Assembly (NCBI RefSeq): GCF_024972755.1
Contig: NZ_CP087724.1
Coordinates: forward strand, 1,922,001 to 1,986,000
DNA: 64,000 bases
Direction of reading: 5' to 3'
Source of the DNA: Halanaeroarchaeum sp. HSR-CO
GTDB taxonomy: Archaea > Halobacteriota > Halobacteria > Halobacteriales > Halobacteriaceae
The translations under genes were made by a program, and so were the position numbers. A model generated the notes under the pieces. The model worked only from the letters and a program-made list of their open reading frames with translations. It was not told where the DNA came from and did no database searches. Of this stretch, positions 55,530 through 57,507 are shown piece after piece. Every line of letters begins with the position of its first letter. The stretch's first letter is position 1.

Positions 55530-55742
55530 CTATTCCAGATACCCCAAATCTCGGAGGTTGTCGAGTAACGCCTCGTCCTCGACGGATTCCTCGACGAGTT
55601 CGTCGAGGCTCTCCCGCCGGTCTTCGACCACGGAGAGGAGTTGTCGCGCGCTCCGGAGTTTGTAATGAACCTCGGTATCGCCCGTTTCAGCGATCGATGC
55701 TTCCAGTAGATCGTCGATCGTGTCGAGAGTCGATTTCGCCAT
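55530..55742 (-). CDS. Small helical protein, 70 aa
   Basis: A 70-residue acidic helical protein beginning MAKSTLDTIDDLLEASIAE and rich in coiled-coil-like heptads (ARQLLSVVEDRRESLDELVEES). No family recognised. The TATA box TATTTATC (minus strand, in the window 55764-55776) is ~28 nt before the ATG, so the mRNA is leaderless. Confidence 0.65.
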   Translation of the reverse strand: MAKSTLDTIDDLLEASIAETGDTEVHYKLRSARQLLSVVEDRRESLDELVEESVEDEALLDNLRDLGYLE

Positions 55743-55763
55743 ACGTCTAGTACCGACCAACAT

Positions 55764-55776
55764 TTGATAAATAATC
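55764..55776 (-). promoter_or_regulatory. TATA box of the 70-aa protein gene
   Basis: GATTATTTATCAA on the minus strand, a very good archaeal TATA box, ~28 nt from the ATG at 55742. Confidence 0.6.
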
Positions 55777-55941
55777 GTTTCGAGCCAATATTCCATCGAG
55801 TGTCCCACAAATCGGCGAACGTATGGGCGATAAGTTCCGCTTCAGGTCGATTGTACGAATTATCCGATATTTGTCTGGCACCAGAATCGAAACGCGAGCA
55901 ATCGATAGGCCTTAGAATGGCCGGACGATAGGTGAAATCGT

Positions 55942-56025
55942 GGTGAGGTAGCGAAGCGGCCCACCGCGCCTGCCTTGAGAGCAGGTGGCTTTCGAGCCTC
56001 AGGGGTTCAAATCCCCTCCTCACCG
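55942..56025 (+). tRNA. tRNA-Ser (anticodon UGA)
   Basis: Acceptor stem GGTGAGG/CCTCACC (55942-55948 with 56018-56024), discriminator G at 56025. Anticodon stem CCTGC/GCAGG encloses the loop CTTGAGA with anticodon TGA at 55976-55978. The T arm is AGGGG-TTCAAAT-CCCCT, and a long variable arm (TGGCTTTCGAGCCTC region) marks a class II tRNA. CCA is not encoded. It reads UCA codons. Confidence 0.93.
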
Positions 56026-56136
56026 TTTTCCGAGCGGCCTGCGAGGAAAACGTGAGAGGGATTTGAACCCTATCAGACGCAGCGGTCGAACGGAGTGAGA
56101 CCGACCGTCTGATTTCGGTTCATACTCCCCTCCACA
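56026..56136. repeat. Inverted copy of tRNA 3' end plus hairpin
   Basis: The sequence GGAAAACGTGAGAGGG.. (56045-56071) is the reverse complement, with a few single-base gaps, of the tRNA-Ser T arm, acceptor 3' half and trailing GTTTTCC (56003-56031). The two arms make a ~27-bp imperfect hairpin. A second hairpin follows: TCAGACG (56073-56079) with CGTCTGA (56106-56112). It may be an attachment-site remnant or a tRNA terminator. No integrase is nearby. Confidence 0.65.
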
Positions 56137-56216
56137 CCGTGTACTGCACGAACAGTGGTCGGCCGACGATTGTGGGTTCCACACGAAGACCGACCGCAAA
56201 AAAGCAGGGTCGCCGA

Positions 56217-56429
56217 TCAGGCTTCGGGGGCCGGCAAGAACAACTTCGAGACCCCGAGGAGCATGAAGACGATAAATCCGAGCAGGACCAAATAGCCTCT
56301 GATGATCGGATAGAACAACGGACACTCTCCCGTCACGGTAAGGACGAATCCCAGTACGGGGAGTCCGAGAACGATCAGACCGCCGCCGAGGAGCATCGCA
56401 AGTTTGTCGATCGTGGTTAGTGTTGACAT
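56217..56429 (-). CDS. Two-span small membrane protein
   Basis: A 70-residue protein with two hydrophobic helices (IDKLAMLLGGGLIVLGLPVLGF and YLVLLGFIVFMLLGVSKLFL) joined by TVTGECPLFYPIIRGY. It lies 18 nt after a DoxX family gene on the same strand and is probably its operon partner. No named family. Confidence 0.68.
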   Translation of the reverse strand: MSTLTTIDKLAMLLGGGLIVLGLPVLGFVLTVTGECPLFYPIIRGYLVLLGFIVFMLLGVSKLFLPAPEA

Positions 56430-56447
56430 AGTGTATTCACCTCGTAG

Positions 56448-56972
56448 TTACCCCATGAGCAAGCGTGCCCAGCGGTTCTGTGCCCAGTTCATCGACTCGA
56501 GGTACTGATCGATGCCGAAGACGCGGCCTGCGCCGAAGACGGCCAGCGTCATGAACAGTAACATCGCTGCTATCTCGATGGAGAAGGCACCGGCGGCCCA
56601 GTCCGCGTTCGTAAAGTAGAAAAATCCCATCAGGAGGGCGCCGAAGAACGATGCCAGGCGGACGAACCCGCCGAAGATGAGACCGACGCCGATGAGGAGC
56701 TCCCCGACGGGAACCATGAAGTTCGTGACGGCAAGGAGGGGGCCGGTGTTGCCGACGAAGACGAGGAGCGGTTCGAGAACGGTTCCGGCGCTCCCCTGGA
56801 GGAGGTATCCAGAGGCGTCGAAGGGCCAGTCGAGTATTTTCGTCAGTCCCGAGCGGAAGATATACCACCCGGTGAGGATCCTCACGAACGCGAGCCAGTA
56901 GGCAGCCCATGGCGCGCTGAATCGGAGCGAGACATCGCTACCGAAGACGGTTGTGTTGATTTCTTGGGTCAT
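56448..56972 (-). CDS. DoxX family membrane protein
   Basis: A 174-residue protein with four hydrophobic segments and the DoxX features: AFVRILTGWYIFRSGLTKIL near the N-terminus, FMVPVGELLIGVGLIFGG, and a FNADW-type stretch FFYFTNADWAAGAF. DoxX/DoxD proteins act in thiosulfate:quinone oxidoreductases or other redox roles; the role here is unknown. TATA-like ATATTTATG (minus, ~57014) lies ~40 nt upstream. Confidence 0.85.
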   Translation of the reverse strand: MTQEINTTVFGSDVSLRFSAPWAAYWLAFVRILTGWYIFRSGLTKILDWPFDASGYLLQGSAGTVLEPLLVFVGNTGPLLAVTNFMVPVGELLIGVGLIFGGFVRLASFFGALLMGFFYFTNADWAAGAFSIEIAAMLLFMTLAVFGAGRVFGIDQYLESMNWAQNRWARLLMG

Positions 56973-57186
56973 GGAACGTCACCACTACACCGAATGAGTA
57001 GACGGACGGGGCATAAATATCCTTGAGCCTGTTTTCGTCGGATAGGGATTCGTCTTTCAGAAAGGTCCGTACTGAAATTATGTCAGGCGAATATCGTTAC
57101 GCATCGCCGAGATCGTGACGTCGGGCTGCTCTGGGAATGCGGCGAGGAGAGTAACGGTTTTGGGGATTCCCGACCACCGTTCGTGC

Positions 57187-57507
57187 ATGGCAGACACGAC
57201 CGCTCAGGATTGGCCACACGATCCGGACGGCGAGAAGGGGAGCGAGGGCATGCGTAACTTCGACATGGCGGTGCTGTCCAAGATGGTCGAAGAGGACGAG
57301 TTCCCACTCCAGAAGGCGGAGTTCGTCGAGGAGTTCGGCGACTGGCCGGTCCGCATCAACCACAAGACGGTCGTCAGCGTCGCAGACATCTTCGAGGACG
57401 TCGAAGAGGAGTCCTTCGAGAACAAAGTGGAGTTCCACCGGTCAGTCGGGCGTGCCATCAGGAAGACCGGGCTCTGGGAGTACATGCCGGACGCCGAACC
57501 AGCCTGA
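57187..57507 (+). CDS. Haloarchaeal hypothetical (DUF5789-like)
   Basis: A 106-residue acidic protein: MRNFDMAVLSKMVEEDEFPLQ, then KAEFVEEFGDWPVRINHKTVVSVADIF. My recollection of DUF5789 fits, with low certainty. It may form a small alpha/beta fold. Its end abuts (1 nt) the convergent uridine kinase. Confidence 0.65.
   Translation: MADTTAQDWPHDPDGEKGSEGMRNFDMAVLSKMVEEDEFPLQKAEFVEEFGDWPVRINHKTVVSVADIFEDVEEESFENKVEFHRSVGRAIRKTGLWEYMPDAEPA

Follow-up and report, generated by a model that had tools for sequence, protein, structure and literature searches.

A gene-less family of tandem units anchored at haloarchaeal tRNA genes and its putative, partly decayed member behind tRNA-Ser(UGA)

Integron cassette arrays consist of small tandem units that turn over as whole units, and their attC sites are imperfect palindromes with cores at the ends and a variable middle. 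Repeats of a different kind occur at the tyrT locus of Escherichia coli (rtT RNA), where 178-bp tandem repeats each contain the last 19 bp of the tRNA. The haloarchaeal arrays described here resemble the rtT repeats in that they stand in tandem behind a tRNA and carry copies of its 3′ end, whereas the rtT repeats belong to one bacterial gene; we know of no rtT-like family that spans a class, contains an inverted copy, and shares modules. The likeness to integron arrays and to attC, as these are generally described, would be one of layout only: the units behind the tRNAs are gene-less, appear to dock in T-loops, and have core letters that differ from those of attC.

Integrases target the T-loop and 3′ end of tRNA genes, and the portion of the account of archaeal integrases used here (PMC8371274) describes att blocks that duplicate the tRNA gene between T-loop and 3′ end and leave an intact tRNA, as in our arrays. 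Unlike such att sites, the arrays have neither integrase nor cargo, occur at many tRNAs at once, and are built of tandem units of ~100 nt, each with a shared inner module and an inverted copy. The small mobile elements of Haloquadratum, palindrome-associated elements and MITEs among them, are likewise short, protein-less, hairpin-bearing haloarchaeal repeats, some of them linked to transposons, and the excerpted description (PMC3119063) reports no tRNA-end copies in them. These elements are defined there by transposon-related or terminal inverted repeats, whereas the ends of the array units are host tRNA sequence; the target-independent terminal inverted repeats of a MITE are absent, and the unit ends follow the host tRNA instead. 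Casposons, which integrate at tRNA 3′ ends, and CRISPR arrays, which grow with duplication of a target block, are similar in these respects as far as the relevant part of the source goes (PMC4046053). In contrast to both, the tRNA arrays lack terminal inverted repeats and a linked Cas1 or PolB, and their content is conserved rather than made up of spacers.

We analyzed a 64,000-nt stretch of the genome of Halanaeroarchaeum sp. HSR-CO, referred to as the window. The tRNA-Ser(UGA) gene that anchors the array lies on the plus strand at 55942–56025 according to Rfam (RF00005, 56 bits) and at 55941–56026 according to ARAGORN. Its positions 54–73, from the start of the T-loop to the discriminator base (56006–56025, plus strand), are the stretch that is duplicated. 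An earlier note on this DNA had pointed out that the 3′ end of the tRNA and its trailer recur in reverse 13 nt downstream and that a second hairpin is present. The inverted copy (56045–56067, minus strand) indeed comprises the trailer and tRNA positions 73–54; its reverse complement aligns with 56006–56031 (positions 54–73 plus trailer) without a mismatch, at the cost of three gaps of one base each, giving a score of 17, compared with a best score of 12 among 5094 control stretches of the window. The region includes a perfect inverted pair of 13 nt, and the 13-nt distance between the arms is as claimed. By fold and sequence, the T-rich trailer and the inverted copy pair as a hairpin (TTTTCC ... 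GGAAAA), here called H1, at 56026–56050 on the plus strand. It is followed on the same strand by an M2-type inner hairpin module (56068–56118; module types are defined below) that consists of CCCT, a ATCAGACG stem, an inner hairpin, CGTCTGAT, and TTCGG. The second hairpin was found here, with 56072–56079 predicted to pair with 56106–56113.

The 3′ end of the unit is closed by a direct but degenerate copy of positions 54–73 of the tRNA (56119–56139, plus strand), which the earlier note had overlooked and which gives the key to the unit. This copy differs from the tRNA by one insertion and two substitutions (score 14, with a maximum of 11 among the 5094 window controls), and it pairs with the inverted copy, so that the second hairpin is closed. 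The 114-nt unit as a whole has a folding z of −4.3 relative to shuffled sequences. We tentatively read it, with confidence just short of even, as an old member, partly decayed, of a family of gene-less, tRNA-anchored tandem units in haloarchaea that would be turned over by recombination at the T-loop.

A search of 55700–56500 with Rfam gave nothing but the tRNA above the gathering score; matches to mir-605 and sX4 were far below theirs and were set aside as chance likeness between hairpins. Open frames cross such arrays, an example being the ORF over 56020–56325. About 1 kb with other frames (56140–57114; e.g., 56448–56972, minus strand) separates the array from the ORF at 57115–57507, and the gene behind the corresponding array in the same-genus genome G093 begins, by eye, like this ORF.

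Throughout the family, the order within a unit is trailer hairpin H1, inverted T-arm, inner module, and a copy of positions 54–73 of the unit's own tRNA. Most units measure 90–190 nt, with up to seven repeats. Behind tRNA-Gly(UCC), seven tandem modules are spaced by 105–111 nt, and tandem units can be near-identical. A few module families, for which the names M1 to M4 were coined in this analysis, recur behind unrelated tRNAs. M1 is made up of TCAGGGA, a hairpin, and GACCGTGG; M2 of CCCT, a stem of ~5 nt, NCG, an inner hairpin, CGT, the stem, three bases, and GG; M3 of GACCGAGGTTCTGCG ... CGCAGGTTCTCGG; and M4 of CACGCGA ... TCGCCATCGGG. The unit at tRNA-Ser(UGA) in the window is M2-like. The stems of the modules covary. 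In M2, for which 13 distinct stems were available from 31 units parsed by a regular expression (out of 139 units), the fraction of Watson–Crick positions was 0.77, compared with 0.35 after shuffling (shuffle maximum 0.64). The foot pairs of M1, taken from 96 distinct hairpins, were Watson–Crick in 0.95 and 0.92 of the cases, compared with 0.69 and 0.34 after shuffling, and G–T pairs made up only 0.03 each. The ends of a unit form a folded imperfect palindrome (inverted T-arm, module, T-arm) that has complementary cores, a variable middle, and covarying stems.

The apical loops often have the form C-GNA-G (CGAAG, CGCAG, and CGGAG being the commonest; raw count, modules in L036–L045 and L260–L379), which we take to be a very stable DNA mini-hairpin. 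In L036, two of the seven tRNA-Gly(UCC) units (~1855–1920 and 2077–2145) have dense changes only in H1 and the inverted arm, with module and direct copy identical to those of their neighbours; these clusters look like local rewriting rather than point mutation.

The direct copies match their own tRNA. We compared the flanks of all 43 tRNAs in the Rfam RF00005 list of the own genome (G000), and near-exact copies of a tRNA's own last 20 nt were found downstream of 21 of the 43 and upstream of none. In three other genomes, namely G093 and, from another genus of the same family, G001 and G007, the own 20-nt end recurs downstream of 23/42, 19/43, and 22/42 tRNAs, respectively, and upstream of none. 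Allowing up to five mismatches in 22 nt, and counting up to six copies, an own-end copy was present downstream at 22/43 and upstream at 1/43 tRNAs, a count that scores Ser-UGA and Gly-GCC as negative although their units are visible. With up to two mismatches within 700 nt, the numbers were 19/43 downstream and 0/43 upstream, and cross-pairings between different tRNAs gave 11 of 1806. None of 20000 permutations matched the direct copies to tRNAs as well as the real pairing; the inverted copies follow their own tRNA too, more weakly (1 of 20000 permutations as good). A search of the genome, which the earlier note had suggested, was fruitful when done with the unit, as relatives appeared behind other tRNA genes, each with the 3′ end of that tRNA.

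The same holds across the class for M1. Of the matches with at least 800 nt of upstream sequence, 102/107 lie behind a tRNA on the same strand. There were 114 matches in all, of which nine had no same-strand ARAGORN tRNA within 700 nt, leaving 105 near-tRNA matches (five of these nine were listed, among them L116, which has a tRNA-like sequence just upstream that ARAGORN missed). Of the 105, 87 end in the 3′ end of their own tRNA, compared with seven for a random other tRNA.

The orientation on the tRNA's strand (102/107), the covarying stems, and the T-rich trailer with H1 would also fit a transcribed RNA element that helps to terminate transcription, aids 3′ processing, or regulates its own tRNA in antisense; in Haloferax volcanii, transcription can end at hairpins, according to the part of the source used (PMC7237163). 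We regard such a role as improbable. About half of the tRNAs have no units, and the number of units varies between near relatives; a terminator needs no 20-nt copy of a tRNA end; G–T foot pairs are few (0.03); and the joint fold predicted for tRNA and unit has the T-arm paired to the inverted copy, at the expense of the cloverleaf. No box motif of guide RNAs was seen in the units by eye. The earlier note had held that, if the structure were found downstream of many unrelated tRNAs without islands, it would be a type of terminator. The structure does recur in just this way, but a terminator type does not follow, because the units carry their own tRNA's 20-nt 3′ end and vary as wholes between relatives. 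An intrinsic terminator was rejected for a similar reason, as a hairpin and a T-run leave the own-tRNA copies and the fixed letters of the modules unexplained.

The edges of the duplicated block were determined from 97 of the 105 near-tRNA records, after removal of duplicates and of records in which T54 was not clear. At positions 62–73, direct copy and own tRNA agree in 0.78–0.97 of the records, compared with 0.26–0.70 for another tRNA, and at position 57 the values are 0.99 and 0.76. At position 51 and the bases right before it, the match is the same as in the control, and positions 74–76 differ slightly. By this pattern of own versus control matches over the 97 records, the start of the block falls between positions 52 and 57, with T54 as the simplest choice, and its end is the discriminator base, position 73. 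The inverted copy follows its own tRNA at 57 and 62–65 and is out of register over the acceptor. Directly behind position 73, the sequence varies between tRNAs, and no common left end was seen there. Reverse transcription with the inverted tRNA 3′ end as primer site was considered and set aside, the block containing position 57.

A fixed 20-nt duplication that always matches the local tRNA is what staggered cuts would directly give if a Cas1-like enzyme (of casposase or CRISPR type) or another transposase cut at the T-loop and 3′ end and inserted a hairpin fragment, and casposons insert at tRNA 3′ ends, as stated in the part of the source drawn upon (PMC4046053). Even so, we judge target-site duplication very improbable. 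There is no conserved left end or pair of terminal inverted repeats, the sequence after position 73 differing between tRNAs; the inserts come from few module families and are not free spacers; and the inverted copy is left unexplained. More generally, simple insertion does not explain why the inverted copy matches each host tRNA.

M1 with T-arm ends was found in 238 of 391 genomes of the haloarchaeal class, covering 66 of 86 genera, and the reversed M1 pattern, used as control, was absent among the matches listed. A stricter form of M1 matched 52 of the 81 genomes in the window's order and none of 311 other genomes of the phylum. The M2 pattern occurs in 219/391 genomes and 60/86 genera of the class, with few control matches. 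A scan of named genomes gave at least 120 stretches; all of the 80 listed are haloarchaeal by title save one “Euryarchaeota archaeon,” and the genera include Halorubrum, Natrinema, Haloarcula, and others, as well as Haloferax sulfurifontis, whose M1 match (L176) stands behind a tRNA. When the M1 core was searched without T-arm ends in the own genome, 10 of the 11 matches were at arrays by place. The viral_contigs search yielded one match, an array behind tRNA-Glu, and the plasmid collection yielded one weak match; with these two matches, an origin from viruses or plasmids was rejected. The viral match (L239:13744–13920, an IMG/VR contig) has an M1 unit and a further, degenerate one at its tRNA-Glu; the contig possibly stems from the host or from the border of a provirus.

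This spread bears on a reading without a dedicated recombinase, in which template switching at the quasi-palindromes of tRNA 3′ end and trailer produces the units, after which homologous recombination and gene conversion between copies multiply, remove, and swap them. Fold-back copying makes direct copies of a stretch alternate with inverted ones, hairpins lying in between, tandem units can be near-identical as at tRNA-Gly(UCC), tRNA-Val genes with the same 3′ end have whole units in common, and no enzyme is linked to the arrays. Modules with fixed letters behind unrelated tRNAs in 66/86 genera are not accounted for by ad hoc fold-back, and the edges at the T-loop and position 73 are constant across tRNAs; we consider this reading possible but rather unlikely.

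Comparison of relatives shows that units are present or absent as wholes. G001 and G007 share 41 orthologous tRNA sites, of which 14 are without copies in both genomes; at 19 of the remaining 27, unit counts differ. At seven of the 27 sites, the tRNA-adjacent DNA of one genome equals the DNA behind a copy in the other (one of these cases is marginal, with its score at the threshold). Seven of the 27 have no common segment, and gain and loss are therefore indistinguishable there. A clean filled/empty pair is found at tRNA-Glu(CTC), where G001 has a 102-bp unit and G007 has none, with the same DNA behind. At tRNA-Ser(UGA), G093 has three units, the third of which is the one seen in the window: H1, module, and end are the same, apart from scattered changes. 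Units 1 and 2 are missing from the window's genome, and the joint lies exactly at the end of block 54–73. In 17 of 44 arrays, the first copy matched the tRNA end better than the last copy did; it matched worse in nine and equally well in 18, and these sequence comparisons do not establish insertion next to the tRNA. A stretch CCCACTTTTTCCGAGGGGCTG...CTTGGGGAAAAAGACCGC repeats behind several tRNA-Gly genes (L313 and L333 in G001; L277 and L297 in G007), and the same unit H1 occurs at two tRNA-Gly genes with differing T-loops.

The earlier note had also suggested that the structure at this tRNA-Ser(UGA) may be the scar of a past integration or of an att site that inverts. The att-site part of this idea stands insofar as block 54–73 has sharp edges at the T-loop and the discriminator base, such as T-loop integrases leave. 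The duplicated tRNA 3′ end with its T-loop edge would fit a single island, as would the few arrays without a tRNA body, where it is as though an island or rearrangement had intervened. Two such arrays, L180:988–1110 and L125:2230–2300, have a decayed tRNA 3′ end, H1, module, and copy, and an island or rearrangement may have displaced their tRNA bodies. As an account of the locus, a single past island nevertheless deserves hardly any credence: units mostly of 90–190 nt, repeated up to seven times, stand behind about half of the tRNAs in four genomes and class-wide, with modules common across genera, and neither an island nor an integrase adjoins the tRNA-Ser array. An island in a related strain, for which the earlier note had advised looking, did not appear, as G093 carries the same unit as the third of three and is free of islands in the compared stretch. 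With units at about half of the tRNAs and no islands there, the single-island scar was rejected as the main reading.

The family reading that we favour, with turnover at the T-loop, would work as follows. Units would enter and leave at the T-loop through the action of a site-specific recombinase, which would most likely be of the tyrosine type and come from the host or from passing elements. The palindrome that the inverted T-arm, the module, and the T-arm make up may serve as a folded recombination site. Because each new unit would carry a 3′ end that matches, the tRNA would stay intact while the old 3′ end is displaced downstream. Recombination between the homologous 20-nt copies probably contributes as well, through loss and reordering and through exchange between tRNAs that share a 3′ end; by itself, homologous recombination can add or remove identical 20-nt repeats and could explain much of the turnover. 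That T-loops are docking sites at which protein-less, integron-like cassettes continually replace the last 20 bases of the tRNA is conceivable, although we hold this part of the reading to be rather unlikely. The region of docking would be the one that integrases use, to judge from the excerpted account (PMC8371274). The recombinase search behind the comparison with integrons covered PF00589 in general and gave nine matches in this genome, all farther than 8 kb from the array tRNAs and none linked to the arrays, in keeping with the earlier statement that no integrase gene is close. The units themselves contain no integrase gene or cargo.

No published description of these arrays was found in the open-access literature searched. 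For annotation, the arrays call for caution, as duplicated tRNA ends may pass for island borders and open frames cross the units. If the reading is true, tRNA genes across the haloarchaeal class host a turnover of tiny structured units that duplicate the most conserved part of the tRNA, which would amount to new recombination-driven or mobile DNA that is tied to essential genes and has no protein of its own. The arrays would then offer a setting in which to ask why tRNA genes attract integration and whether archaea have folded DNA sites of the integron type.
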